Assembly (NCBI RefSeq): GCF_032854445.1
Contig: NC_088305.1
Span: forward strand, 26,748,628 to 26,812,627
Direction of reading: 5' to 3'
Origin: Liolophura sinensis
Lineage: Eukaryota > Mollusca > Polyplacophora > Chitonida > Chitonidae
DNA: 64,000 nucleotides
The notes beneath the pieces were generated by a model that ran no database searches, was not told the origin of the DNA, and saw only the letters and a program-made list of their open reading frames with translations. The position numbers and the translations under genes were made by a program. Shown here in pieces: positions 13,166 through 43,957 of the stretch (positions are counted from its first letter, which is position 1; each line of letters opens with the position of its first letter).

Positions 13166-15758
13166 ATCCAATAAAAAAATAGTGAATTTCTTTTTGTAGC
13201 ATAGGCTATAAAGTTTTGTTGTGTGTATTAGTTTAGACGTGTCAAAAAACGTGGAGACAGTTCTCGCCACTGTTGTCAAGCCGACAACCCCAAGATAATG
13301 TGACATGCGTAAGTCTAAATTCCCTTCATTACGACCAGATTGTCACCAATATTACCTCATGGTCAGCAAAAAATATCGGCTACGTGTTGAGGAGTGCAAA
13401 GTCATGAACTTATCAACAGAGCTGACCGTCAACATGCAAGTAAATGGAGAACAAAGTGCTGTTTGATGCCGTTCCGCCGAATGTCGAGTCAGGATAAAAT
13501 CTCCATATTTGTCATTTGAAAATGTCCAAATCATAACCCGTAAATTTTAAAGCTTCATTTTAGTTCAACACCAAGACATAAATTCCCAAAATATCTGTAA
13601 ACGATTGATTTACGATTATGACTCTGCTTATAACTTATACCAAATACAACTTAGTTTCGCCTCAGGTGCATTTTCACAAAAAAATCGTTCACTTAGGAAT
13701 CGTAAGATATGTATCTGTCATTGAAGTAACAAAGCAAAATAAAAAAAAGTCGTCGCTCCTTCGTCTGAATATTTTCCGATGTCCACGTAAAGGGGCCCAC
13801 TTGAAGATCCTTTGTCTTGTTTATTTCCTGGTGTATTTATAGTCAATCGGATGGATTTATCGAAGAATTTAGAACAGTCAGAATTTTGAGGCGAAAGTAC
13901 GCGGTAGACCAGACCCTTACATGAACTTACCTGATCCAGAAGTAATAATGTCTGAAAAGTGCTTATTCCAAGATGACCGACATTTCCATATTCCTCCACT
14001 CATGGCCGTCTTTCGGTTCATTACGATACACTGATCCCGATGAGTAAGGCGTTGTTGGGGGACGGGGAGCGGTAATTATTTATACTTGACCTTTAATGTG
14101 CGAAAACTAATTACAGATCCTTTCTCTCCTTGGAGTAAATAATTCAGCTTCCAATCACCATGGCGCTCGCGTTCAGTTTTAATTGATCGTCCTCGATGTA
14201 CGAGGAATCCGCGAAGGTTGATGTATTACAGCTTGGTTATCTCTCGCCGGGCTAAAAAATAACGGTTTGCCCTTGCAAAAAGAAAAAAAACATGGGTATA
14301 GAGGCTTCCATCACTAATCAATGCCTATGGAGTGTGTTGAAGAGGATCTCTATCCAGCATGAATAGACAAACTGATCCTGGTAAACAAGGGCTCAGTAGG
14401 ACAAAGGGTCCTACTCGCATGTAACGATCCAACCATCACCTGTTTAACTGAGATTTTGGGCCAAAAAATTCCATATTCGCTAATCAAACCAAATTTTGCG
14501 TATTCATTAACTCAATTTATTGGCTTTCAGTAAACATTGGACTCATATCTGTATTATTTATTGCGGTAAAATGATTCTAAAGTTTGAAAAAATTATAGTG
14601 CGACCCGCTGTATGATTGGAACGTTGGACGGTAGCACCTGAAAAGACGATGCTGCATGATATTTTGTAAAAAGAAATCTTTTAAGCTATTGAAGATTTAT
14701 TGGATTTGCGCTGATCGATTTTCTTGCCTTAAATCTCTGGTACAGTTTCTGCAAAATTCTCGTGTGCGTGTTATTGAAGGTTTTTTTGGTTTTAGCCACA
14801 ACTAACTAGATCTACAACCATAGAGGGAAACTGTGATTTCTTTGGAAACACAGGATTAGGTCTCGCACAATACAAAAATAACCTAATTTACTACAGGCGA
14901 CAATACATCCAAAGGATATTTTTAAAAGAATAGAATCAAATATTGGTATTCATTTACTATGAATTTATTAGATATGTACATGTATATCTTACCCCTCTAA
15001 AAGAATACCTCATTTAGACGAATTCGTTGGTTTCACATGTACAGAGGAAACTGCGTGAAAATCAGTGCGTTTCTCTGGATACCTGGCAATCTTCCTGACA
15101 TACTTTCGCAGTCAAGCTAGCAGAAAATGGAGTTGAACACGAATGATTATTAGTTCAGAAGGATAGTATGACCGAAATAGGACAAAATGTCTAATTCTTC
15201 GATATTAGAGGCCTAATGGGAGATTGGGGAGGCATAATTCGTAGTTCGTATAATATCCATGGCATCAAGAATGTCGCATAGCCGCCATTTTGTTATAAAT
15301 AAACAATTAGACCGCTGAGTGAATTGCAAAGAGCACGACAGGTCATGAAGTCGATACACGAAAGATCGTTAAATGGCGCTTATTATACGCAGCACACGGT
15401 TATCTACGATAAATCAGTCCGTTTAGATTACACGACGTAATTTCAATTCTTTGTCATGGGAATTCGACGAAATTACCTCTACCGCTCGATGGAAAGAAGT
15501 TACTAAATTTGCTTAGTGTTGAAAGAAATGTGTAAGAAAAAAATTGGAAAATACTGAGATAAAACTCCTCACGGAGTAACTTTCTCATTCCAAAAGTCAA
15601 TTATTCTTTCAAAATCGGAGTCGTTGTTTACAAATGGAAACTCAGGTGGAAATTTTCAGGAACGGTAACTGCAGCTTGTCATAGCAGAAATTCTATTATT
15701 GGGAGTAGCGTCCCTTTAAAGAAACTTTCTGAAATTACCGTTAGTTTCCGTGTGTGTT

Positions 15759-16212
15759 GGCCTCGGACCCCCATTAATTTTCCATAAGCGACAATGTTAA
15801 CGTCTAGCACTGTAGCTCAGTCCCAAACATTCCGTGGCCAATAAGCTTTGGTGCATACCTGGCCCAGCCTGTGAGAAAGAAGCCATAAAAATCTTGACAT
15901 AGGTTGACCGTCAAAATCTGGACCTTTCCATGCCGGCAGCTGGGAGGCGTGCCTAGCAACGCCAAGGGGACGTCACTCGCAGCCTCATCACTACCTCACA
16001 CCTTGTGTCCTCTCGCCCAGAGTTTCAAACTTTCATCAATAAAGCTCATACCTCCTCAAAGTTTAGACAGTTTCCAGCATTTTAATACCAAGCATGCACC
16101 TGTGCACCAAAAATGGACGCCTGGGAGCAAAAAAAGACTTTATACCCTAAAATTCACAGAACTACAATCGTCCCTACCGAAAAACGGAAGTTGTAATGGG
16201 GGTCTGTGTCCT
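15759..16212 (+). repeat. left terminal direct repeat of the transposon
   Basis: The repeat is identical to 19898-20351 except for one base (C at 15963, G at 20102). It starts GGCCTCGGACCCCCATTA and ends TAATGGGGGTCTGTGTCC(T), so it carries inverted ends of its own, like a small non-autonomous element. It holds AATAAA at 16038-16043, the arrangement seen in LTRs. An open frame from 15904 runs through most of it in both copies. That frame has no recognisable domain and follows from repeat identity, so I do not call it a gene. Confidence 0.92.
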
Positions 16213-17086
16213 ATCACACCAGCCACCTTCTTTCAAAATCAATAATTTTTGCACCACACAATTCCTGACACTTCTGAACCTCACAGGCAAAATTAGGGCT
16301 TGATACATGCAGAAACTTTGGAGTTGAATGAATTCAAGTTGGGGTACCCCCATCTTGGACATGTGTCTTTTTTTCAGGGTGAAAAAACTCTGAAGGGTAA
16401 ACTTTGAAGCTTTGCAGTGCATATACCGTTCAAGATATCTCCATCAGGTCAACTGTTTTGGAAAGACAAGATGTTTATCTGCAAGAAAAGTTAAAAAAAT
16501 CACATTGACAGAGCACTTTAGACTTTTCAAAAGCAACCATTTAGAGAAATATACATTTTTAAGAAGACTTTTCTACTCAGAGCAGCTTTAAATATGAAAG
16601 TTACAAACCAAAAGTGTCAAAGCATACATCAAAATATAGGCAATTTATCTGACAATTAAATGTCAAAATATAAGACATTTACTTCAGCAACTATGTGAAA
16701 AAAATTGACTGACAGTGTGGTAGGGGGTATCAAAGCGGATTGTCACGATTTCGGAACAATCATTTGTGACCAAAATCAAAGCAAGAATAATGCCTCAAGG
16801 TGATGAAGACCTACTCACAGGCACTTTTTTAGTGGACAGGACTTAAGAAAAGACTAGTATCCCAGTTCCCCACTGAATAGCATGATGAAACCCTTTAAAA
16901 GACCACCCAGCCAGGCATCCCCCCCCCCCTGCCCTCCTCCCCCATGACTGCTGATTGGCTGACCACCTCACCATGCAAAAACCTCCCTGCACCATTGCTG
17001 TTGTCTCACAGCAGGTTATTACTCTACACAGTCACATCAAAGGGTGTCACATTGGCATCTACAACATATAAACAGAGAGGAAAAAT
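16213..17086. other. transposon 5' interior, non-coding
   Basis: No open frame of note lies between the left direct repeat and the transposase. The segment includes a C-run near 16920-16931. TATAAA at 17067-17072 probably positions transcription for the transposase. I found no second pair of inverted repeats just inside the direct repeats. Confidence 0.55.
17067..17072 (+). promoter_or_regulatory. TATA-like box before the transposase
   Basis: TATAAA lies 15 bp upstream of the first ATG and 108 bp upstream of the second in-frame ATG at 17180. Normal TATA-to-start spacing of about 30 bp would put the cap site past the first ATG. Confidence 0.35.
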
Positions 17087-19141
17087 ATGAATTTAACATT
17101 TCCAATCAGGCAGCCACCAAGTACACCTATATTGGTCAGCCTGACAGTTAACAAGGCAAACAATCTACCCCAAAACACCATGAAGGGAGACAGAAAGAGG
17201 AAACAGTCTAGATTTCAAGCTGGAAAGGCCCAGGATCGCTCAAATAACCTGTCAGCAGTTACAGACATGCTGAATCCTCTGCCTGGGTGTTCCTTGATGG
17301 ACACAGATTTCCAGCCCAATCAGGAGGCTGTAAGAACACACCAGCCTGACACAAAGAGAATACAGCGGCCAAGACGGTGCAAGGTAGATTCCACGGCTGG
17401 ATCAGACAGAGATACCCATGAGCGGGAATGGGCTGCTGAAGGAATGCGACTCATAGACATACAGAAAATGGTGTGTATATGGAACAAAGTTATGCTTGAG
17501 CACAGTGAGACCAAGGACCACTGTCCACTGCCCAGGTTAGAGATAGCTGCAGAGAAAAAGTGGGGTTTAGCCTGGGCGTTCAGTTTTAAGTGCTGTGACT
17601 GTGACTATGTATCTGGCTTCCACAAATTCTACAAAGAGGTAGAATGCAACAGACCTGGCCAAAAAGCTGCAGCGGTGAACCGAGCTCTTCAAGTAGGCCT
17701 CCAGGACACACCAATGGGGAACACCCGAGCCAGACTCCTATTTGCAGCGATGGACGTGCCGCCTGCCACTCGTAGGAACATGCATCGCACTGCAAACCAT
17801 GTTGCATCTGCAATCGCAAAGCTGAACAGAGAGGATATGGCAAATAAGGTGGAAGAGGTAAAGGCATACAAAAGGCAAAGAGGAGAGGATGACAGCACAA
17901 TAGATCTGGCCACAGACACTCGCTACAACAGCATTACCATAACCAGTCCCAAGAAACCGGGCCAGAATGCTTCACAAGCCATTTCCCTGGCAGTGGAGAC
18001 ATCAACAGACAAGCAATACATTGTCTCCGCAGCACTGAAGAATAAATTGTGTTGGACTGGGTCCTGGCTGAGAGGAAAAGGCTTCCAAGTAAAGTGCCCT
18101 GGAGGACACGAGGAGTGCACAGCGAACACAAACCCACATGCCCCCTGGTCCGAGTATAATATGGGGAACGAGATTGGCGAGGGATTGGCGAGGCAAGGTG
18201 TTTTAGCCAAGCACGTAACCACGGACGGCGACTCCAGGTCAGCCAAGGGAGTGGAGGACGGCATCCGACTGGTCGAGCCACTGTGGGAGGTCGAACGGTT
18301 AGCAGACCCCACGCACCTTGGTAGATCCCAGTTCAAGAAATGTAACCAGGCTAAGTTCAGCGATGCCATGTTTGAAGGACAGGGCCGAACGAGGGAAGCC
18401 AGGAAGAAAGCACAGAAGGTGTTGAGTCAGGATGTTAAGGCCAGGTGTAGCGTGATATTTTCTCAACTTATGTCTGAGCACATTGGTGACATAAGGAAAA
18501 TAAAAGCTTACCTACCCAGGGTTGTGGATGCAACGGTCAGGTGTTACGGTGGGGACTGTTCCAAATGCCGCAGGAACAGTGTGGTTTGCTCCGGAGGGGA
18601 AACCAGCAGCTGGTGGGAGAGATCCCTGTTTTTATCCGCCAGTAAACTCTGCCCTTTCAACATGGATGACAACGACAGGAAACTATTGACCGAAGTACTG
18701 CACATGAGGTTGAGCGAGACAGCCGTCACCAGTCTCCGGATGAACACCAGTACTCAAAAGTGCGAAGCTGTCAACAGATCACTCAGCGTCTCCTTGCCCA
18801 AGAATGTAAACTACAGCAGAAATATGGAGGGAAGGGCGGCGTCCACAATCCACAGACTTAACAATGGCCAGGACAAGTCCACGGCTGCCAAACTCCAAGC
18901 TGTCGGCGCCAGTATTTCACCTAGGAGCGAGAAAACAGTACAACAGATTGAAAGGGTGAACCAGTACCACAAGGTTTATAAGAAGCGACAGACAGTTAAG
19001 GGGAGATCACTCCGCAATACAGCCAGAAAACTCCGAGAGCACATTGAGTACAGGCTTTCAAATCCAGAAGAGAAAACTGACTATGCCAAGGGACAACTGG
19101 ACAACACCCCAACAGATCACACATACGCTAGATATTTGTAA
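17087..19141 (+). CDS. Mutator-like DDE transposase, intact (684 aa)
   Basis: This is the cut-and-paste enzyme of the flanking transposon. The frame is uninterrupted. Candidate zinc-binding residues precede the catalytic region (Cys146, Cys169/170/172). The fold is suggested by Asp277 in ATDTRYN, Asp380/Asp382 in TTDGDS, a C/D(2)H-type DPTH at 407-410 and Glu560 in QKCEAVNR. Two more cysteine clusters, CPGGHEEC (337-344) and CYGGDCSKC to Cys501, lie in the insertion region. Acidic residues in this order and the DxxH signature are known for the hAT/MULE/P/Kolobok group. The overall sequence is what animal genome annotations call Mutator-like transposase domain protein (from memory). TATAAA sits only 15 bp before the first ATG, so the in-frame ATG at 17180 (MKGDRKRKQSRF, basic) may be the true start, giving 653 aa. 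ATTAAA near 19190 could end the mRNA. Assignment of individual catalytic residues is inference. Confidence 0.88.
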   Translation: MNLTFPIRQPPSTPILVSLTVNKANNLPQNTMKGDRKRKQSRFQAGKAQDRSNNLSAVTDMLNPLPGCSLMDTDFQPNQEAVRTHQPDTKRIQRPRRCKVDSTAGSDRDTHEREWAAEGMRLIDIQKMVCIWNKVMLEHSETKDHCPLPRLEIAAEKKWGLAWAFSFKCCDCDYVSGFHKFYKEVECNRPGQKAAAVNRALQVGLQDTPMGNTRARLLFAAMDVPPATRRNMHRTANHVASAIAKLNREDMANKVEEVKAYKRQRGEDDSTIDLATDTRYNSITITSPKKPGQNASQAISLAVETSTDKQYIVSAALKNKLCWTGSWLRGKGFQVKCPGGHEECTANTNPHAPWSEYNMGNEIGEGLARQGVLAKHVTTDGDSRSAKGVEDGIRLVEPLWEVERLADPTHLGRSQFKKCNQAKFSDAMFEGQGRTREARKKAQKVLSQDVKARCSVIFSQLMSEHIGDIRKIKAYLPRVVDATVRCYGGDCSKCRRNSVVCSGGETSSWWERSLFLSASKLCPFNMDDNDRKLLTEVLHMRLSETAVTSLRMNTSTQKCEAVNRSLSVSLPKNVNYSRNMEGRAASTIHRLNNGQDKSTAAKLQAVGASISPRSEKTVQQIERVNQYHKVYKKRQTVKGRSLRNTARKLREHIEYRLSNPEEKTDYAKGQLDNTPTDHTYARYL

Positions 19142-19250
19142 CCGCCAGTTTTGTATAAAATTTGTCACTGCTGTTGTCGCTTGTGAAAGAAATTAAAAAA
19201 TGATGACAGAAATTGAGCAAAATCTGAAACACATCTGTTATTTATTATTT

Positions 19251-19639
19251 TTAATGAGGGGAAACCAACCTGCTCAGTCTTAAATGCAGCATGCACCTTG
19301 CATACTGCCCATGGCCGAGACAGCGCCCTACGTTGCAGCAGCGCTGCCTGTTATTGTTAACACAATGCGGTTCCAAGCTTGTGTGGTCCACATTTACACA
19401 GCGTGTGTTGTGGCACAATCAAGCTTGGGATCTAAATGCGACAGCCCCTGTCTGGCCATATAAACAAGTCTACTGATGTATTTCTTCTTCCATCGATGTG
19501 TGACGGGGTCTTTGTAGGGGGCAAGGCCATATCGACCATCTCTCGTCAATGGTCCAGTCCACACTCGACAGGCTCCGTTTTCGTTATAAACACTGAAACT
19601 TTCAATTTTTGCAGCAATTTCTGCTCTGAACGTCTCCAT
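19251..19639 (-). pseudogene. broken His-Me finger (HNH, I-PpoI-like) endonuclease
   Basis: It is convergent to the transposase, 110 bp beyond its stop. The first frame starts at an ATG at 19639 and runs 75 residues: Cys24 in GACRVWTG, then RDGRYG, then HRWKKKYISRLVYM, ending KLDC before it meets a stop at 19394. A second frame starts at 19415 and runs 54 residues to TAA at 19251-19253. It opens CHNTRCVNVDHTSLEP, continues with VNNNR, and then has a Cys/Cys/His/Cys set (RCC, GRC, GH, ARC). That order matches the double zinc-bound His-Me nucleases (Pfam zinc-binding loop of homing endonucleases; I-PpoI is the reference). In the family a Ser-His-Leu precedes CHN and carries the catalytic His. 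Here it is absent, and the frame is off by what looks like a deletion of about 10 nt. I infer an inactive gene. No GT-AG intron could remove the break. Confidence 0.8.
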
Positions 19640-19897
19640 TTTCAAGCGTAGGAATACTAGAACGTTGCATGTTGTTCATTTCAGGATGCCTATACACATG
19701 TTACCCTACACTGAACAGCATTTTACCGATTTTTCATCAAAATGGATATTTTCAAAAAATAAATAGCCCCAAGAAGCTATAAAACGGCTCAATCAATGCA
19801 AAACACATCACAGACATACCCACCAAAAATTATCAGGCTGCTGCGAAATCTAAGCGCATAGTGACATTTTTCACATTTTGGTGACTTCGTCAGTACA

Positions 19898-20351
19898 GGC
19901 CTCGGACCCCCATTAATTTTCCATAAGCGACAATGTTAACGTCTAGCACTGTAGCTCAGTCCCAAACATTCCGTGGCCAATAAGCTTTGGTGCATACCTG
20001 GCCCAGCCTGTGAGAAAGAAGCCATAAAAATCTTGACATAGGTTGACCGTCAAAATCTGGACCTTTCCATGCCGGCAGCTGGGAGGCGTGCCTAGCAACG
20101 CGAAGGGGACGTCACTCGCAGCCTCATCACTACCTCACACCTTGTGTCCTCTCGCCCAGAGTTTCAAACTTTCATCAATAAAGCTCATACCTCCTCAAAG
20201 TTTAGACAGTTTCCAGCATTTTAATACCAAGCATGCACCTGTGCACCAAAAATGGACGCCTGGGAGCAAAAAAAGACTTTATACCCTAAAATTCACAGAA
20301 CTACAATCGTCCCTACCGAAAAACGGAAGTTGTAATGGGGGTCTGTGTCCT
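19898..20351 (+). repeat. right terminal direct repeat of the transposon
   Basis: Second copy of the 454-bp repeat, with AATAAA at 20177-20182. Its last 17 bases supply an ATG at 20335 that is in frame with the host transporter start at 20437. Confidence 0.92.
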
Positions 20352-20436
20352 GTTTCTCCACAAGCTGGGAATTAGTGTTCGTTACAAGTACAAAACGATA
20401 CAGATATCACTGTGTACAACGAATCCACTCCGTGTA

Positions 20437-24527: not shown

Positions 24528-26284
24528 GTAGGTCAAACTGCTGTTTGAAACACTGGATTGAGCGGTGTCCTTTTCAGACCATGTGATCTGTTTCGTAACA
24601 TTATGCTTTTGCAACTGAGTATACACAGACTGCTAGATACACATACACATACGACGTATATACATATAGGGCTAAGAATGCATTCAGTGAATGGGACTTT
24701 AAACGATCTATTTGGCCTGAAAATATACGATTGTATACGGCGTTGATACTCACCGAATTTCGACAAACAAACGTGAAATCTGACGTTTATTAGCATTTTT
24801 TTTTTGGTTTTAAAAGTTCTAATGAAAACAAGAAGAAAAACAATTTTCCTGGACAGGGTTTAATGGTATCTGATGAATGTACACGTAGATGCATTTGTTC
24901 TTCATGTTATTATTTTCTGCGGCTACAAACTATAGGCCCTATATTCCGTTAACTGAAATCGCAGGTAGGAATTCAGCCCTTATGGGTTTCGGTGTGGCCT
25001 TAAGTAAAATCAACAATTCATTACACCCTTGAGTTCCCGCAGGGCTGGGCGAGACAAAATTGTTTGCTCTCGCAAACTAAACGTGGATAAAGCCGTGATT
25101 TCACTGCAACTTCTTCACTATATTACTGTTGCAACTATCATAAAATCATGATCATATTTTAGTAATGTCGCTTTGCGAAAATTCCACCTTTGTAAGGCAT
25201 CTGGTAGTACCCGGTTTTCTCTACCATTAACCTGTGAGGGAAAAAGCTCTGAGGGCTGCGTAAAAAGACCGTTAGATAAACATAAATCACAACCCTTTGC
25301 CTGTTGGACGTATTCTGTTCTCTCTTTACTTTAAAAGAACATTCTGATCGCAGTCAAACCGGAGTATACCTTAACGTTACCATACAACAATTAAACACTC
25401 TGATCGCAATTAAACACTAGTAAACCTTAACGTAATTATACAACAATTAAACACTCTGATCGCAGTTAAACCCCAGTATACCTTAACGTTACCATACAAC
25501 AATTAAACACTCTGATCGCAATTAAACACTAGTAAACCTTAACGTAACTATACAACAATTGAACACTCTGATCGCAGTTAAACCTTAACGTAAGTATACA
25601 GCAATTAAACACTCTGATCGCAGTCAAACCCCAGTACACCTTAACGTAACTATACAGCAATTAAACACTCTGATGGCAGTCAAACCCCAGTATACCTCAA
25701 CGTAACTATACAACAATTAAACACTCTGATGGCAGTCAAACCCCAGTATACCTCAACGTAACTATACAACAATTAAACACTCTGATCGCAGTTAAACCTT
25801 AACGTAACTATACAGCAATTAAACACTCTGATGGCAGTCAAACCCCAGTATACCTCAACGTAACTATACAACAATTAAACACTCTGGTCGCAGTTAAACC
25901 CGAATGTACCAAAACATAACTTTTGACCCTAAGGAAAACGTATGGTGGAACTGGTTAATTTTCACAAAATTAACCAGACAGACAAGTAACAATAGTTACA
26001 GCTTATAACCATCTGGATTCAAAATTGATGAAATTCAGTTGCATTTCGCAAAAATTAAATAAAAACAATTCTTGATTTATTAAAGTTTGTCTGCTTGTTA
26101 TGGAAAGTTCTGGTCTGGGAGAACCAGAGCTCTTTAATGCAAAGCACTAGGGTATGTGTAAGTTGATTGTAACACATGCTTAACACAGTTTATTTAAAAT
26201 TTAATTTTGTCATAAAAATTTGGCACTGTTTTGTGCGTGAGAATAGTTAACAACATATAGTATTGGGCCTGTTTGTTATTTTAG
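24528..26284 (+). other. intron 2 of the MFSD4B-like gene
   Basis: The intron is 1.76 kb with a GTAGGT donor and an AG acceptor at 26283-26284. It contains the 56/46-bp minisatellite at 25338-25910. Nothing else is recognised. Confidence 0.75.
25338..25910 (+). repeat. minisatellite, 11 units of 56 or 46 bp
   Basis: The landmark aacactctgatcgca recurs about every 56 bp. Two steps (near 25567-25613 and 25781-25827) are only 46 bp, because the ccccagtata block is missing. Base variants (atcgca/atggca, attaaa/gtcaaa) are shared between neighbouring units. The array lies in an intron of the transporter. Confidence 0.93.
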
Positions 26285-27393
26285 GTGGTACATTTCTTTT
26301 TGCCTTGTTGTGGAGAACTAAAGCCAATCCTTACATCCAGGCCCTTCATTTCCTCTTTGCTCTGGGGGCGTTGACAGTCCCGTTCGTCACCGAACCATTT
26401 ATGGCGCCAGATGTTGTCAGTGGCAAAAATAGCAACAGAAACAACACGGGCAGGAGTAGCAACAACAACAGCGGAAGTCTCGGAATTGGAAACTGGAACC
26501 ACACAGCAGAATATCACTGGAATTTGAATAGCGATTCAGAACAGACAAACGCGTCTTCAAAAGACGACAACGGCGAAAGAACAACGGACGTATACATTTC
26601 CTTTCTGCTTGTGGGCGGTTTTATAATCATATCATCAATACCATTTCTTTACCAACATGCCCAAAAAATCAAAAATCCAAACACGACCGAAAGTCGGCTC
26701 TTTGGAAGACATACTACCAACAGCGTCTCGCTACAACTTCGCGAAGGAGTGCCGAAAAAGCCGATTTTATATCGAATCTGCGCTTACGTTTTGATCGGTC
26801 TGATTTACGGCACTTACGGTTGTGTTGAGAAAGGTTGCGCGACGTTCCTTATGCCTTATGCCGTGGAACACGTTCACTGGGACAAAATCAGTGGCGCCCG
26901 TTTAGTGGCGGTTTTCTGGGGCGCCTTTGCCGCCTTCCGGTTCCTCGCTATTGGGTTTGCCAAAGTTACCAGCGAGTTCCAGATGCTCTTGGCGGACTTT
27001 ATCGTCTTGATCGGTGGATCGTGTCTCTTCCTCCTCGCCTCTCCGGACACGGAGGTCGTTGTCTGGATTGCTAGCGTGGTTGTGGGAAGCGCTCAAGCCG
27101 GGATCTATCCAACGGCCGCCGCATGGATTAACAAACATGTCTCTCGGGTTACCGGCGTCCTGGCGGCGCTCTTGACACTATCCGTGGCAGCCGGATCCAT
27201 GATCAATCTCCCGTTACTAGGTTACCTGTTTGAAGAACATTCCCCGGTATGGTTCACCTATCTGTCCATCGCCTTCTCGCTCCTGTGCTTTTCCAGCTTT
27301 ATAGTTTTGCACTGTTCAGGTAAGATGTTTAAAGAGGTGCCCACGCAGGTAAACATAGAGCTAATGGAACCATCTGAAAACAACACAAAGTGA
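26285..27393 (+). CDS. MFSD4B/NaGLT1-like transporter, last coding exon
   Basis: Residues 136 (split) to 504. Helix 5 has QALHFLFALGA (154 onward), a strong family landmark. A hydrophilic loop of about 60 residues follows (roughly 176-236), rich in Asn and Ser with sequons NNT, NNS, NHT and NAS. If this loop is extracellular, as in the family, it should be heavily glycosylated. The second half begins at VYISFLLVGGF and includes a basic loop ending GVPKKP. It continues YGTYGCVEKG, ARLVAVFWGAFAAFRFLAIG (the VFWG..A.RFLAI block of NaGLT1) and the final helices to WFTYLSIAFSLLCFSSFIVL. The tail is short and acidic, ending ENNTK. AATAAA at 27500-27505 is a plausible polyadenylation signal. The frame is intact and length matches the family (about 480-520 aa). 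Confidence 0.87.
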
Positions 27394-27832: not shown

Positions 27833-30800
27833 CTGACTGTTGATATGAACTGTCAGGGACTGGCTGATGTGAAAAAAGGGAATCAGACTGTTCATATAGT
27901 ATCTATGAACTGTCGGGGGTAGGCTGATGTGAAAAAGGGATTCAGACTGTTGATATAGTATCTATGAACTGTCAGGTGTGGGCCGATGTGAAAAAGGGAC
28001 TCAGACTGTTGATACAGTATCTATGAACCGTCGGGGGTAGGCTGATGTGAAAAAGGGACGCAGACTGTTGATACAGTATCTATGAACTGTAGGGGGCTGG
28101 CTGATGTGAACAAAGGGATTCAGACTGTTGATATAGTATCTATGAACTGTCAGGTGTGGGCCGATGTGAAAAAGGGACTCAGACTGTTGATACAGTATCT
28201 ATGAACCGTCGGGGGTAGGCTGATCTGAAAAAGGGACTCAGACTGTTGATACAGTATCTATGAACCGTCGGGGGTAGGCTGATGTGAACAAAGGGACTCA
28301 GACTGTTGATATAGTATCTATGAACTGTGGGGGGATGGTTGATGTGAAAAAAGGGACTCAGACTGTTGATATAGTATCTATGAACTGTCAGGGGCTGGCT
28401 GATGTGAAAAAAAGAAACTCAGACTGTTGATATAGTATCTATGAACTGTCGGGGGCAGCCTGATTTGAAAAAAGAGACTCAGACTGTTGGTATAGTATCT
28501 ATGAACTGTGGGGGGCTGGCTGATGTGAAAAAAAGGGACTCAGACTGTTGGTATAGTATCTATGAACTGTGGGGGGCTGGCTGATGTGAAAAAGGGACTC
28601 AGACTGTTGATATAGTATCTATGAACTGTCGGGGGCTGGCTGATGTGAAAAAAAGAGACTCAGACTGTCGATACAGTATCTGTGAACTGTTGGAGACTGG
28701 TTGATGTGAAAAAAGGGACTCAGACTGTCGATACAGTATCTATGAACTGTCGGGGACTGGCTGATGTGAAAAAAGGGACTCAGACTGTTGATATAGTATC
28801 TATGAACTGTGGGGGGATGGCTGATGTGAAAAAGGGACTCAGACTGTTGATATAGTATCTATGAACTGTCAAGGACTGGCTGATGTGAAAACATGGACTC
28901 AGACTGTTGATATAGTATCTATGAACTGTCCGGTGCAGGCCGATGTGAAAAAAGGGACTCAGACTGTTGATATAGTATCTATGAACTGTCGGGGGCTGGC
29001 TGATTTGAAAAAAGAGACTCAGACTGTTGATATAGTATCTATGAACTGTCGGGGGCTGGCTGATGTGAAAAAAAGGGACTCAGACTGTTGATATAGTATC
29101 TATGAACTGTCGGGGCAGCCTGATTTGAAAAAAGAGACTCAGACTGTTGGTATAGTATCTATGAACTGTGGGGGGCTGGCTGATGTGAAAAAAAGGGACT
29201 CAGACTGTTGGTATAGTATCTATGAACTGTGGGGGGCTGGCTGATGTGAAAAAGGGACTCAGACTGTTGATATAGTATCTATGAACTGTCGGGGGCAGCC
29301 TGATTTGAAAAAAGAGACTCAGACTGTTGGTATAGTATCTATGAACTGTGGGGGGCTGGCTGATGTGAAAAAAAGGGACTCAGACTGTTGGTATAGTATC
29401 TATGAACTGTGGGGGGCTGGCTGATGTGAAAAAGGGACTCAGACTGTTGATATAGTATCTATGAACTGTGGGGGGCTGGCTGATGTGAAAAAAAGGGACT
29501 CAGACTGTTGATATAGTATCTATGAACTGTCAAGGACTGGCTGATGTGAAAAAGGGACTCAGACTGTTGATATAGTATCTATGAACTGTCGGGGGCTGGC
29601 TGATGTGAAAAAGGGACTCAGACTGTTGATATAGTATCTATGAACTGTCGGGGGCTGGCTGATGTGAAAAAAAGAAACTCAGACTGTTGATATAGTATCT
29701 ATGAACTGTCGGGGGCTGGCTGATTTGAAAAAAGAGACTCAGACTGTTGATATAGTATCTATGAACTGTCGGGGGCTGGCTGATGTGAAAAAAAGGGACT
29801 CAGACTGTTGATATAGTATCTATGAACTGTCGGGGGCAGCCTGATTTGAAAAAAGAGACTCAGACTGTTGGTATAGTATCTATGAACTGTGGGGGGCTGG
29901 CTGATGTGAAAAAAAGGGACTCAGACTGTTGGTATAGTATCTATGAACTGTGGGGGGCTGGCTGATGTGAAAAAGGGACTCAGACTGTTGATATAGTATC
30001 TATGAACTGTCGGGGGCAGCCTGATTTGAAAAAAGAGACTCAGACTGTTGGTATAGTATCTATGAACTGTGGGGGGCTGGCTGATGTGAAAAAAAGGGAC
30101 TCAGACTGTTGGTATAGTATCTATGAACTGTGGGGGGCTGGCTGATGTGAAAAAGGGACTCAGACTGTTGATATAGTATCTATGAACTGTGGGGGGCTGG
30201 CTGATGTGAAAAAAAGGGACTCAGACTGTTGATATAGTATCTATGAACTGTCAAGGACTGGCTGATGTGAAAAAGGGACTCAGACTGTTGATATAGTATC
30301 TATGAACTGTCGGGGGCTGGCTGATGTGAAAAAGGGACTCAGACTGTTGATATAGTATCTATGAACTGTCGGGGGCTGGCTGATGTGAAAAAAAGAAACT
30401 CAGACTGTTGATATAGTATCTATGAACTGTCGGGGGCAGCCTGATTTGAAAAAAGAGACTCAGACTGTTGGTATAGTATCTATGAACTGTCAAGGACTGG
30501 CTGATGTGAAAACATGGACTCAGACTGTTGATATAGTATCTATGAACTGTGGGGGGCTGGCTGATGTGAAAAAAAGAAACTCAGACTGTTGATATAGTAT
30601 CTATGAACTGTCGGGGGCAGCCTGATTTGAAAAAAGAGACTCAGACTGTTGGTATAGTATCTATGAACTGTGGGGGGCTGGCTGATGTGAAAAAAAGGGA
30701 CTCAGACTGTTGGTATAGTATCTATGAACTGTGGGGGGCTGGCTGATGTGAAAAAGGGACTCAGACTGTTGATATAGTATCTATGAACTGTCGGGGGCTG

Positions 30801-32348
30801 GCTGATGTGAAAAAAAGAGACTCAGACTGTCGATACAGTATCTGTGAACTGTTGAAGACTGGTTGATGTGAAAAAAGGGACTCAGACTGTCGATACAGTA
30901 TCTATGAACTGTCGGGGACTGGCTGATGTGAAAAAAGAGACTCAGACTGTTGATATAGTATCTATGAACTGTCGGGGGCTGGCTGATGTGAAAAAGGAGA
31001 CTCAGACTGTTGATATAGTATCTATGAACTGTCAAGGACTGGCTGATGTGAAAACATGGACTCAGACTGTTGATATAGTATCTATGAACTGTCGGGGGCT
31101 GGCTGATGTGAAAAAGGGACTCAGACTGTTGATATAGTATCTATGAACTGTCGGGGGCTGGCTGATGTGAAAAAGGGACTCAGACTGTTGATATAGTATC
31201 TATGAACTGTCGGGGGCTGGCTGATGTGAAAAAGGGACTCAGACTGTTGATATAGTATCTATGAACTGTCGGGGGCTGGCTGATGTGAAAAAATGGACTC
31301 AGACTGTTGATATAGTATCTATGAACTGTGGGGGGCTGGCTGATGTGAAAAAGGGACTCAGACTGTTGATATAGTATCTATGAACTGTAGGGGGCTGGCT
31401 GATGTGAAAAAGGGACTCAGACTGTTGATATAGTATCTATGAACTGTCGGGGGCTGGCTGATGTGAAAAAGGGACTCAGACTGTTGATATAGTATCTATG
31501 AACCGTCGGGGGTAGGCTGATGTGAAAAAGGGACTCAGACTGTTGATATAGTATCTATGAACTGTCGGGGGCTGGCTGATGTGAAAAAGGGACTCAGACG
31601 GTTGATATAGTATCTATGAACTGTGGGGGGCTGGCTGATGTGAAAAAGGGACTCAGACTGTTGATATAGTATCTATGAACTGTCGGGGGCTGGCTGATGT
31701 GAAAAAGGGACTCAGACTGTTGATATAGTATCTATGAACTGTCGGGGGCAGGTTGATGTGAAAAAAAGGGACTCAGACTGTTGGTATAGTATCTATGAAC
31801 TGTAGGGGGCTGGCTGATGTGAAAAAAAGGGACTCAGACTGTTGATATAGTATCTATGAACTGTGGGGGGATGGCTGATGTGAAAAAGGGACTCAGACTG
31901 TTGATATAGTATCTATGAACTGTCGGGGGCTGGCTGATGTGAAAAAAAGAAACTCAGACTGTTGATATAGTATCTATGAACTGTAGGGGGCTGGCTGATG
32001 TGAAAAAGGGACTCAGACTGTTGATATAGTATCTATGAACTGTGGGGGGATGGCTGATGTGAAAAAGGGACTCAGACTGTTGATATAGTATCTATGAACT
32101 GTCGGGGGCTGGCTGATGTGAAAAAAAGAAACTCAGACTGTTGATATAGTATCTATGAACTGTCGGGGGCTGGCTGATGTGAAAAAAAGAAACTCAGACT
32201 GTTGATATAGTATCTATGAACTGTTGGGGGCTGGCTGATGTGAAAAAAAGGGACTCAGGCTGTTGATATAGTTTCTATGAACTGTCGGGGGCAGGTTGAT
32301 GTGAGAAAAGGGACTCAGACTGTTGGTATAGTATCTATGAACTGCTGT
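27833..32348 (+). repeat. large minisatellite, about 75 units of 59-61 bp
   Basis: The unit runs from tctatgaactgtcgggggct through ggctgatgtgaaaaaggg to actcagactgttgatatag. Length varies through the A-run (5 to 7) and the G-run. Variant units (cagcctgatttg; ctgttggtatag; tcaaggactgg; aacatggactc) are arranged in recurring orders rather than at random, and one 720-bp block is duplicated (see findings). The open frames on both strands, such as those near 28861 and 30781-31137, follow from unit periodicity and are not genes. The first units (27833-28320) and the last two are the most diverged. Confidence 0.97.
28981..30420 (+). repeat. 720-bp tandem duplication inside the minisatellite
   Basis: Twelve successive unit variants at 28981-29700 recur in the same order at 29701-30420. 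Examples are a gatttgaaaaaagagac unit, then a standard unit, then cagcctgatttg, then two ttggtatag units. The only length change I noticed is one G (cggggcagcc at about 29111 against cgggggcagc at about 29831). On either side of the pair the unit order no longer matches. Confidence 0.8.
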
Positions 32349-39175: not shown

Positions 39176-39532
39176 TTGCAGCCCATGTGGCGTTTGGGTG
39201 TCACCTCAAGTGCGTTGATTAATCTTATGACGTCATTTAAGGCAAAAGACTACCTTTCAAGACGTCTTTACCTTTATCACGTCTTGTACATGTATAATAT
39301 ACGTCTATTTAGAGGAGTTCTGTCTTAACTTCCACAATTATGTGCTTTTATAGCATAATGCAGGTTTGTATGGTGCAGACGTTAAAAAAGTACGCCACAC
39401 TGCGCAGTGTTGTAATATTATCATTTATATACCGGTAATATAATGAACACAGAAGGTATATTTACTTTCATTTTTGTGCTCCCTCTCTTTTCAGAATCTA
39501 GACTGCCATCCCTGAAACATATTTTCTTCACA

Positions 39533-40544
39533 ATGTTTGAGACCGGCATTGCAAAGAAGGAGATAAACTGTACAGAATCTGAGAACTCGTCACATGAGTT
39601 CTCATTGGATTATTCCCTCGCTGACACACAGACTGTAGTATGCGGTGCCCTCGCCTTCTGCCTGGTGCTTCCGTTGGTGCTGTTTACGTTCCCCTGCTTC
39701 CCCATTGGCACCACGGCAGCTGTTTTACTCGGGGCTTTCCTTATGGTTGCCACGGGGGTTCTTTCGCAAACAGAAGTGTATGAGATTCTCGGCGAGGCGC
39801 CGAACATGCGCACAATACTACTGTTAGTAAGCATGATGATGTTGGCGCAGTTTTTCGAGAGGGAAAACACACTGGGGCGTCTTCTTGGAAAATTATTGAC
39901 TTCAGACCAAAGTTTTATTACTTACATCTTTAGAGTAACGCTAGTTACGTTCTTGATAGCGGCCATTTTTACAAACGACGCTGCGTGTGCTATAGTTACG
40001 CCTCTTATTCTTGAAGTGTGGCGCAGGCAAAACCGCCCGAAAATAGAGTTAGAGACGTTGTTGTTGGCAATAGCGACATCGGCGAATCTCGGTAGCGTCA
40101 TTACTATTTTTGGAAATCCACAGAACGCTTTGATAGCGTCCGCCACGGAGTCTACGGAATATAAAAAGAGTCAACTGAACTTGTTGCGCTGTGTGAAATA
40201 TCTCTGGGCGCCAGCTGCTATTGGTTATGGATTCAACATGGCCTTCCTCGTGTTTCATTTCCGCTTCCTGTCTCGAGGTTTCGAAGCTGCGCACTTGGAC
40301 TTACCACCGGAAGAACCCGATAAGAAGGTATTGGAGAGGGCCAACAGCTATGAAGACAAGATATCCGGTCGCGGATCCATGGAACTAAAGCCAATAAATA
40401 CATTGAACTCTTCAGATGTGGAGTTAGAACGTCTGGACAACTCGGGCCACGGGTCATTTCGTTTTCAGATTTTTTTGGTCATGTTACTCGTTGCTGTTGT
40501 TGTGCTTTTGTTCATCCAGACCAGATCCATCGCTTTTGACATAG
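39533..40544 (+). CDS. ArsB/NhaD/Lsi2-like ion transporter, coding exon 1
   Basis: The gene encodes a 515-aa multi-helix membrane transporter of the ion-transporter superfamily; the nearest family I recognise is the silicon-efflux Lsi2-like group. Residues 1-337 are here. A short N-terminus carries sequons NCT and NSS and precedes helices from about residue 33. FTNDAACAIVTPLI (146-159) is the first re-entrant region, and GNPQNALIA (194-202) the first GNPxN motif. A charged loop at about 250-308 precedes another helix. The exon begins at an acceptor (39493-39494), and the first ATG after it is 39533. An earlier in-frame ATG at 39443 lies in the intron. It ends in phase 1 at GTAAGA (40545). Joined length is 1548 nt, in frame. 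Silicate, arsenite, citrate or sodium are all handled by relatives, so the substrate is not established. Lsi2-like genes are reported in several animals, from memory. Confidence 0.82.
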
Positions 40545-40609
40545 GTAAGAAATATGAGAGGAACTCTAAATGAAATTGTACCTACATCATCCGTAATTCT
40601 CGATTGCCA

Positions 40610-40925
40610 TTGGCTGATCAAATGGGTTAAAATGTTGACACACACTTATCAGAGCTGCGCGCCATGTCTGTAAGAGGTATATGAGATTTAAACCCTGTGC
40701 AGTGATTTAGCAGCGCAAGCTGAAGTCATCTTTTTCTTTGACGATAAAAATTATTCCGTGCGCAGCTAAATTACTGCGCAGGCTGACGTCATTATGTCGT
40801 CACGCCACTATACCAGCGCTGTCTGCAGTCGACATAGCTAACATGGTTGTTCTCAGCCCAGCTTTACATATATATACGAGATTGGCTTTCCATTGGATAA
40901 ATATTCTAGGGACAAAATCTTTAGC
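40610..40925 (+). repeat. dispersed repeat F, copy 2 (uninterrupted)
   Basis: It is homologous to 34800-35165 without the MITE. It carries an internal near-duplicate (the cagctaaattactgcgcagg block after the agtgatttagcagcgcaag block). Confidence 0.75.
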
Positions 40926-41554
40926 CCTATTTGTAAAATTTCCCACTTACAGTTTTTTAACTTACAGAAATTATTTTGTGAATCAGGAAATGAATGCATA
41001 CGTTATCAGATGTCTAAAGGCAAAATGGAGAGTGGACCAACAGTTGATATCAGTTCAATTGTGATCAAAACCATGCATAGTTTTACCCGAACGTATCAAA
41101 CACCTGACAGGGATCCAGGTGTATCTATATAGCTCAGGTGGAGAGAGCATTTATGCGCTATTAATCTAATCTTTAATCACAGATTGTAGTGGTAATTATA
41201 TTTCCCTGGGTTTAATCTGCCAAAAGTAGCTCATTTATCCGGGCACTCTGACTTCCTCTACCCATGTGATAACTGATCACCATCATTTTAGTAAAAAAAG
41301 TCATGAACATGACCTTAGACAACAGTCAATAAATCAGCCTTTGCTCATTCCATTTAAATGAAAGGATGTTTAATTTTATTATCATATGGTATACATGAAG
41401 TGGATGCGTTTAATATGTAAATACATAGAATGTGTTCAGCTAGGAGTGTAGCATTCATTGAAAGAAATATAATTTTTAAACATAAATTCAAAATCAATCT
41501 ACAAATTATCAGAAAAAATGTCAACTCAAAAAGTAATATGTTAATTTTAACAGC

Positions 41555-41775
41555 AAGTCTGTTACCCGAGAGATGCGGGAATGTATTCTGTTATTACAAC
41601 ATAGTACTGTGTTACATGCATATCCAACACAATTTGCTGTTAGTGTAATAGAATCGTTATGTTGAATTTCCAGAATATTTGTGCTGTATTTAACAGAGTA
41701 ATCTGCTGCAATGACAATACATCCAATACATTACTGAATGCAATACATTCCAGCATCACTCAGAAAACAGACTTT
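41555..41775 (+). repeat. dispersed repeat G, copy 1
   Basis: AT-rich sequence sharing gaatgtattctgttatt and then ccagcatcactcaga with 44068-44217. The two copies lie on either side of the last exon of the Lsi2-like gene. Confidence 0.55.
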
Positions 41776-42535
41776 GTGTTCAAATGTTTGAGAACAGTAC
41801 ACTGTATGCTGTCAAGTTTGATTATCTTTTGACTTTTACATTTTCACATAGCTCATTTTGTATCAATGGACAAAATACAGAGATATGTATTATGTGAGAG
41901 CTATAATTTGGGCCAGAAAAAGATGCACAGAAGACAAACGGTATCATATTATCAGCATTCCTGGTAAGAAAAAAGGTTGCTGAACCAAAAAATATTTCTC
42001 CGGTCACGGAGATAAGTTCGCCTTGAGGTTTTTGTGTTTTTGAGGTCGGGGGAGACGTTACTTGCACAGAGAAACGTGATGTGCGTCTTTGTTAGCTAGA
42101 CTGGAACTGGCCTAGATTTTTCTTGATATATCATATCTCGCCTAGTTTCTATAGTTACACAATCCCTACAAAAATATGCAGGTATACATAATACCCTAGC
42201 TTGAGATCGCGAGGTGTCGTCTGCTAATCACGTGCGCCGATCGCCTGGCGGAAGATGTCACGGATTTGCAAAATCCGGCCGTCATGCATGTCGTGTTTCA
42301 CAGCTTCAGTTTCACTCTCTGTTTCCACACAGAGAGCGTTAAGGAACAAAGATTAGTGGTTACAACTAACGCCGATCTCGCTATATTGCGTGATTTGTTT
42401 CAGTTTTCAGAGGATTACTTGTAGGGCAAAGCTCACACAATGCCTTTAGTTTTCATGAGGCCATATTTAATGTGTACGACATAAATGAACTGAGTGATAT
42501 TCAGCAAACTCATATGTCGTTTGTTATGCCAGGAA

Positions 42536-42640
42536 CCTGGGGATGGTCGCGGGTTTCCAACGGGTTCAGCCCGATAACTTAGCACCACTGCAAGCCTTAG
42601 TATTAGTGGAATATCCTTGAGTACGGTAAAATAAGCAATA
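42536..42640 (+). mobile_element. SINE family A, weak remnant
   Basis: The blocks cctggggatggtcgcgggtt, agtggaatatccttgagtac and ggtaaaataagcaat are degenerate versions of the core and tail. Confidence 0.5.
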
Positions 42641-42874
42641 TGTCATTGAAAAACATAGATTAGTTATTCATTTGAGTCTAAAGCTAAGCTTTGTGCAGTT
42701 CTCTTTCATTTTACAATTCTTTGGAATTTAAGTGTAGGAAAGAAAGAAAAATGCCTCGGCGATTATGTTTGGCAGCCATGCACGTCCAAATACCTGTTAT
42801 TAAATACGTCCAGTTGTTTTTTTTAACTCAAAGTGAAAATTAAAGGTACCAAGTTACTTATTTTGCAAATCGGA

Positions 42875-42965
42875 GTTTCACGTCGTATTCAAAAGTATTC
42901 GCTTCATGTGAAGGTGATGTGTTTTTTGGGTGGAAGAAACCCCACATCACCCCACCATGTGCATA
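42875..42965 (-). mobile_element. SINE family A, weak remnant
   Basis: The blocks tcacgtcgtattcaaaagta and gggtggaagaaacccc correspond to a decayed reversed core. Confidence 0.5.
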
Positions 42966-43421
42966 CAAGGTATATGTAGTTGTCATTTTTTTTGGTTGTA
43001 TATTTCGAAAGCACCCATGTCTTCTAGATTAGGGACGTCAATTAATTACAATTAACATGACTGCATTTTTTACCATGGTGCTAGAAGGTGGGGAATTTGC
43101 GATTATTTAAGCATTCACTTGAACAGTCAGAATAAAACCTTTACTGAGGTAAATTGACAAGAGGCCGTATTTCACCGGCTACGTATCACCATTTGTTAGA
43201 TATCGCTGTCATCGCTGCTCTGGTTTTACTCTGTGCTGTACGCCTTTAATTATGTGAATAAATGTGTTTTACCATGACTTTTGTGTCATTCAGTTACCCA
43301 GCCACTTGCACAGCTAACATATTGTTTAATTACATCTTTTTTAAATAAAAACTTGATTAAAACAATTTTCAAATTGACAAAAAATTTGGCATATATGTAA
43401 TGTTAAGATTTCCCTTTACAG

Positions 43422-43957
43422 CTTTGGTGCCCCTGGCAGCTAATATCCTCATAATGGTAGTCGACGCGGCGTTCAGGAAGCGCCGGCCTGCGGACGTCTT
43501 TAAAAGGGTCGACTGGGGAATTATCATGATGTTCTTTGGATTCTTCGTTTGGCTTGGAGGCGTTAACAAGACCCGCATAGCTCGATGGGTTTGGCAACAC
43601 ATGGGACTGTCAGGCCGCTCAGCCACCGACGTAGAAAGCATCGTAGTCCTTTGCTGTTTTGTGATATTCGGTTCCAATCTCTTCAGCAACGTGCCGTTGA
43701 CGATCATCGTTTTAGAACAACTGGAACCGTGCAAAGACCAGCTTCCTACCGTTTTGTATTTGGCATGGGGATCCACCATCGCCGGAAATTTGACGCTTTT
43801 CGGCAGTGTCGCAAATTTGATTGTCGCTCAACAGGCGCTAGTCACCGTGAACTTTGACCTCACGTTTTACAAATACATCAAGTTTGGTTTTCTCTCCACG
43901 CTCTGGATTGTGACTTTAGGTATCGTCATTATCTACGGACTCTTGCTTCTCTATTGA
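43422..43957 (+). CDS. ArsB/NhaD/Lsi2-like ion transporter, last coding exon
   Basis: Residues 338 (split Ala) to 515. VDWGIIMMFFGFFVWLGG (367-384) followed by NKT is the standard start of the second half in this superfamily. SNVP (426-429) matches the second re-entrant region. GNLTLFGSVANLIV (459-472) is the counterpart of GNPQN in the first half. The protein ends in one further helix and LLLLY. The two motif pairs show both inverted halves are present, so the transporter looks complete. No AATAAA lies close to the stop; ATTAAA near 44121 is a possible signal. The ATG at 43400 is intronic. Confidence 0.86.

Follow-up and report, generated by a model that had tools for sequence, protein, structure and literature searches.

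How can a DNA transposon carry long direct repeats at both of its ends, and what keeps the two repeats alike? The question is posed by an element at positions 15759-20350 of a 64,000-nucleotide stretch of the chiton Liolophura sinensis (NC_088305.1, positions 26,748,628 to 26,812,627; the whole stretch is referred to here as the window), in which a 453-bp repeat, a 3686-bp interior containing a transposase gene and a second 453-bp repeat form a three-part unit. The element is almost certainly a KolobokP, and its layout is already known under that name and is not new. We found that the paired long terminal direct repeats (LTDRs) of this family evolve in concert, in a manner tied to transposition rather than to residence time, a point that does not appear in the parts of the KolobokP paper (PMC9587614) available to us. 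As a whole, the observations are best explained by a composite-like DNA transposon of the KolobokP kind that has its own transposase and whose LTDR pair is rebuilt with transposition, a reading that we hold to be fairly probable.

KolobokP was described by Kojima & Bao (2022, Mob DNA 13:24, PMC9587614), and no other paper using the name was found in the literature searched. Among papers listed on Mutator elements, none presented the layout in its title or the opening lines of its abstract. According to the available parts of that paper, to which all statements about it below are limited, an internal region (INT) lies between two LTDRs of ~450 or 660 bp, each with terminal inverted repeats (TIRs) of 11-18 bp and RR..YY termini; target duplications of 3-5 bp, without strong target specificity and not TTAA, stand outside the outer LTDRs; downstream of the transposase, the complementary strand encodes a His-Me finger nuclease; and solo LTDRs and (LTDR-INT)n-LTDR multimers occur with duplications. 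The element studied here shares with these the LTDR-INT-LTDR order, an LTDR of ~450 bp with a short TIR, the RR..YY termini, short non-TTAA duplications, a DDD/E transposase on the direct strand with an I-PpoI-like nuclease on the complement, and both solos and multimers. The sequence-only reading of this stretch had suggested a poorly described element group; it was right about the group, and the adjective is fair with one paper found, but the group had already been described as KolobokP.

The two repeats differ at a single site (C at 15963, G at 20102), as that reading had it, although the length of 454 bp that it gave needs correction, base 454 being T in both flanks by coincidence. Each LTDR carries its own 18-bp inverted ends, since 15 of 18 positions match between the left end, GGCCTCGGACCCCCATTA, and the reverse complement of the right end, GGACACAGACCCCCATTA; the termini are GG..CC, i.e. 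RR..YY. The interior contains an unbroken 684-aa frame matching PF20700 (Mutator-like transposase) at E 2e-77, and no reverse transcriptase was found in the three element frames scanned with Pfam, which bears out the earlier description of the coding content; the only other frames of at least 130 aa inside the element, which measure 167 and 132 aa and run antisense within the transposase gene, lie outside that scan. The repeats had also been called LTR-like, partly for an AATAAA in the LTR position. The word is present at 16038 and 20177, but with five copies in the element and 104 on the window's + strand it is so common as to carry no weight, and the repeats, which have short inverted ends of their own and occur alone, are not LTRs.

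The layout recurs across the genome. In a search of the 609-Mb assembly, the best 30 of 78 transposase matches were examined with their flanks (the other 48, many of them fragments with stops, only in part), and an LTDR was present on the 5' side at 30/30 of these loci and on both sides at 29/30. At L044 the 3' LTDR is interrupted by N after 343 bp, and at L049 an N gap is reached before the 3' side; INT adjoins the LTDR at all 30 loci, at L049 only up to the gap. The 20-mer at the left end of the LTDR was found at 344 places in the genome with at most one mismatch, its reversed control at none, and this together with the genome-wide recurrence of the three-part structure places the layout far above chance. 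The claim that the terminal direct repeats belong to the transposon is thereby upheld, and the possibility that most transposase copies lack them is set aside for the loci examined.

Among the 29 insertions that were scored, 25 show an exact 4-bp duplication outside the outer LTDRs (in 2000 shuffles of partners the mean was 1.5 and the maximum 7), whereas duplications of 3, 5 or 6 bases were found in none of the 29. The structure and these duplications are direct observations; full copies have the regular repeat-transposase-repeat layout and the target duplication that the sequence-only reading proposed to look for, and not, as it also considered, a separate duplication for each repeat. The count includes an 'L049-50 array' that spans an N gap and leaves out L044 (N gap), the broken or multimer pairs L081/82, L083/84, L085/86 and L089/90, and the extra solos L093 and L094 (same flanks, a duplicated segment), L099 and L100, all four of which have matching 4-bp duplications. 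Among insertions with exact duplications, target position 1 was A in 31/44 and A or T in 42/44, and position 4 was T in 38/44 and A or T in 42/44; neighbouring positions showed no such bias, and these are raw figures, uncorrected for background base composition. The target preference is ANNT, a point that is absent from the available parts of PMC9587614, where no strong preference is reported. Ordinary Kolobok elements resemble the element in the broad type of their DDE transposase, their RR..YY ends and their 4-bp duplication, but they lack LTDRs and target TTAA (PMC9587614); the TTAA duplication characteristic of that superfamily is not seen here, the duplications being ANNT-like. As a separate observation, three closely alike broken transposase copies stand on one contig (C21:59032-60576, 214181-215725 and 374151-375695), which suggests a larger duplicated segment.

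Cut-and-paste movement of an unchanging composite as one piece would let the 5' and 3' repeats diverge as separate lineages, each side handing down its own alleles. We compared 32 LTDR pairs, drawn from 24 single loci, the C9 array (counted once, by its outermost LTDRs) and seven older pairs added beyond the best 30 transposase loci; L083/84 was left out as truncated, the 3' LTDRs of L081/82 and L085/86 entered the alignment only in part, and L089/90 adjoin each other within a multimer. Eleven LTDR alleles occur in at least two of the 32 elements. Eight of the 11 were observed in both LTDRs of every carrier. A ninth, at column 52, is two-sided in 12 of its 13 carriers, the exception being an older element with the allele in a single LTDR. 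Mates differ at 2.12 positions on average, against 6.79 for 5'-5', 4.96 for 3'-3' and 5.86 for cross-side comparisons, and shuffling of partners gave a mean as low as that observed in 0/5000 trials overall (26/5000 within subfamily A, 0 within subfamily B and 7 for six older pairs; the subfamilies are treated below).

Resident copies are not quickly homogenised, because the private changes of the older pairs are mostly one-sided (46, against 9 two-sided, in six pairs, L095/96 being grouped with B in this analysis). Pair renewal is linked to transposition in that spreading alleles are two-sided while resident copies drift one-sided. In 25 young insertions, private changes per kb were 1.77 in INT and, in the LTDRs, 0.84 one-sided plus 0.62 two-sided, rates that roughly sum if the two-sided changes predate insertion and the one-sided changes follow it. 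That the LTDR pair is rebuilt in connection with transposition is accordingly where the balance of our judgement falls, if not by much. One locus, L045, has 25 private INT sites (seven of them in one adjacent run) and no private change in either LTDR, hinting that INT and LTDRs can have different histories.

The picture given by the sequence-only reading was incomplete in that it overlooked a nuclease frame on the opposite strand. Subfamily B carries a 127-aa minus-strand frame at 15 of 16 loci (13 insertions, the C9 array accounting for four of the loci; one residue of the SHVCHN stretch is altered in L057), with a match to PF05551 at 3.7e-08 and a weak PDB match to I-PpoI (1evw, 0.039). Compared with subfamily B, the window copy has a 10-bp gap after 19414, beyond which the frame stops, and the SHVCHN stretch is gone; the longest nuclease frame is 81 aa in the window copy and in 12/12 loci of its subfamily, A, in which the gap is fixed. 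Searches with an 83-aa minus-strand frame from the window alone found nothing in the PDB at E <= 1 and a single Pfam match, AMPKBI at 0.2, below the family cut-off; the nature of this frame was settled by the nuclease match of the longer subfamily B frame. Because the B form resembles I-PpoI, we infer from the sequences that the nuclease was lost in A and not gained in B.

Subfamily A looks the younger of the two, its INT divergence being lower (0.27% in 11 copies, against 0.72% in the 13 insertions of B). Its transposase frame is uninterrupted in 11/12 copies (L060 has stops), and its LTDR mates differ by 0 or 1 substitution in 12/12. Near-identical copies are thus directly observed, and from them the element is recently active. 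The window's subfamily has spread with matched LTDRs despite its broken nuclease frame, while the sister subfamily mostly keeps the frame. This sets it apart from KolobokP as described, and we found no such case in the available parts of PMC9587614, which notes families without the nuclease but could not rule out later decay. An intact nuclease would therefore seem not to be needed in cis, and two young subfamilies with and without an intact nuclease frame in one genome amount to a natural experiment.

LTDRs also occur alone. An exact 4-bp duplication flanks 19 of 22 solos (shuffled mean 1.4); of the remainder, L073 has a 7-base match and L027 and L070 have no matching duplication. The 22 comprise 17 true solos among 20 unpaired left ends that were fetched (the other three, L074, L079 and L080, adjoin INT) and 5 of 30 loci from a separate genome search. 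Among 100 listed of the 344 left ends (mismatch-free and first by contig, a choice that under-represents divergent copies and to which the pair and solo counts are confined), there were 22 same-strand pairs within 15 kb and 56 unpaired ends; some of the 22 pairs are not full elements, C5:435028/436182, for example, being a duplicated solo and C6:45876095/45888847 two solos. Likewise directly observed is a four-unit array on C9 (transposase frames C9:31864224-31878671) inside a single AGGT duplication. At columns 52, 85, 91, 263 and 270, eight of the 22 solos read G,A,T,G,A, a combination unlike those of subfamilies A and B, and two solos on different chromosomes, L027 and L028, are free of substitutions relative to each other. 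All of the 32 full pairs carry at least one of the five minor alleles except the much-diverged L086/L085. The solo allele set fits independent LTDR movement, as proposed in PMC9587614, and solos left by an unsampled full lineage would give the same allele picture.

Three other explanations of the layout were rejected on the recurrence of the layout, the outer duplications, the mate distances and the sidedness of the alleles. That two small elements landed by chance around an older transposon would agree with the existence of solo repeats with their own duplications, but the presence of the layout at 29/30 examined loci, with the duplication outside the outer repeats, makes it exceedingly improbable. 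We give as little credence to an LTR retrotransposon, or a hybrid with one, in spite of the long direct repeats, the tandem arrays with a common repeat and the matched pairs, because the 18-bp inverted ends are GG..CC and not TG..CA, the large frame is a DDE transposase, and the three scanned frames hold no reverse transcriptase. Plain cut-and-paste of a frozen composite, with the two LTDRs as separate lineages, is very unlikely: the 4-bp duplications and TIRs suit a cut-and-paste enzyme, and two elements, which belong to different groups, carry the column 180 allele on the 5' side alone, but this explanation predicts that same-side LTDRs are closer than mates, the opposite of what was found (2.12 for mates, 6.79 and 4.96 for same sides), and 9 of the 11 common alleles are two-sided with at most one exception among their carriers.

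A more serious competitor holds that the LTDRs of resident copies are homogenised by gene conversion or unequal crossover while the whole unit transposes in the ordinary way; an 'induced unequal crossover' is an idea of PMC9587614. Such a process would also produce two-sided alleles, and it agrees with the four-unit C9 array inside one AGGT duplication and with the commonness of unpaired LTDR ends (56 of the 100 listed of 344, with 17/20 fetched being true solos). Against it, the 46 one-sided and 9 two-sided changes of the older pairs indicate slow conversion, whereas the alleles of related elements are nearly all two-sided, and an intact nuclease frame is missing in cis from subfamily A. We regard it as a real possibility that nonetheless falls short of an even chance.

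Under the explanation that we prefer, rebuilding of the pair with transposition, the element's own DDE transposase would act on the LTDRs at their short inverted ends, and insertion would make 4-bp duplications with a preference for ANNT. Transposition would pass through a one-LTDR stage, perhaps like an IS26-like translocatable unit or a cointegrate, or one LTDR would be copied onto the other end, and the pair would be rebuilt; an LTDR alone may also be mobilised in trans. The specific proposal of a circle or cointegrate step is tentative. We are similarly hesitant about a copy-type cycle, with two identical LTDRs regenerated at each insertion from a circle of INT and one LTDR and with no need for the element's own nuclease in cis.

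Several points weigh against this explanation or its parts. Four of the 29 scored insertions lack an exact duplication, L038 and L040 being off by one base and L032 and L043 unmatched. Two common alleles are one-sided, with carriers from different groups; that at column 180 was found only in the 5' LTDRs of its two carriers, L060 (subfamily A) and the older pair L091/92. Plain cut-and-paste predicts such a pattern, but the other 11 subfamily A copies are without this allele, and we therefore read it as recurrent. The column 316 allele is two-sided but joins different groups (L058 and L097/98) and is probably recurrent as well, and the informative common alleles number only 9. For subfamily A, a nuclease might be supplied in trans by B, or its own message might be spliced into an intact form. 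The assignment to KolobokP was made by layout and features as described, and not by a transposase tree. Finally, the circle or cointegrate is deduced and not directly observed, and the same two-sided alleles could arise if young active copies underwent gene conversion or unequal crossover; a circle or cointegrate step and crossover in active copies are not told apart by the present data. As to the two unmatched insertions, GTACA precedes the 5' LTDR at L032 and TATC follows the 3' LTDR at L043, INT-end letters beside the outer repeats, as if these borders were derived from multimers.

PMC9587614 left open by what means a composite keeps its architecture when its ends can be excised, and proposed nuclease-induced crossover or circles; its available parts contain no treatment of concerted evolution of LTDR pairs and mention gene conversion once, about homing endonucleases. 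The allele pattern, with pairs matched in spreading lineages, including the subfamily with the broken nuclease, and drifting in resident copies, makes that question testable. With bacterial composite transposons and IS26 translocatable units, as treated in PMC9587614, the element shares directly repeated, TIR-bearing modules that bracket a cargo, and a one-repeat circle of the IS26 kind would account for matched repeats; it differs in having the transposase in the interior and not in the flanking modules, and in its eukaryotic genome. LTR retrotransposons likewise have long direct repeats that match within a copy, and solo repeats, but here the repeats bear TIRs and the interior encodes a DDE transposase, with no reverse transcriptase in the scanned frames. 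If true, rebuilding at each insertion via a one-LTDR circle would be a DNA-only counterpart of the end renewal of LTR elements.

Features of the element in the window (positions of the window)
Feature	Position	Strand	Remarks
Left target site duplication TGTT	15755..15758		4 bp, outside the outer repeat
5' LTDR with its own TIR	15759..16211	+	453 bp
INT, starts TATC, finishes TACA	16212..19897		3686 bp
684-aa DDE-type transposase	17087..19141	+	PF20700
Broken His-Me finger (I-PpoI-like) nuclease gene, 81-aa frame	19394..19639	-	compared with subfamily B
3' LTDR, one mismatch with the 5' LTDR	19898..20350	+	453 bp
Right target site duplication TGTT	20351..20354		4 bp

For KolobokP transposases, PMC9587614 describes a CCHC finger after the first D, a C/DxxH motif and a second finger before the last E. 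In the 684-aa protein we picked out by eye, and not by alignment to KolobokP proteins, the candidate catalytic residues D277, D380 or D382, and E560, a candidate DxxH motif at 407 and Cys/His clusters at ~322-345 and ~486-501. A control locus, L101 (C4:9938000-9943600), holds a PF20700 transposase gene with a 623-aa open frame and likely represents a different Kolobok-type family; no direct repeat of at least 20 bp was found in its 5.6 kb, and a 21-bp inverted pair brackets the gene. Judging from this one control, the LTDR layout is not general to PF20700 transposases in this genome.

Elsewhere in the window, a minisatellite of 59-bp units (~75 copies, 91% matches) occupies 27844-32344, with a strong G-over-C skew (0.40 in 28001-32000). 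Open frames at 26251-27393 and 39416-43957 resemble membrane transporters by eye, presumably of the major facilitator type and the arsenite-permease/OCA2 type, respectively, and are probably host genes near the element.

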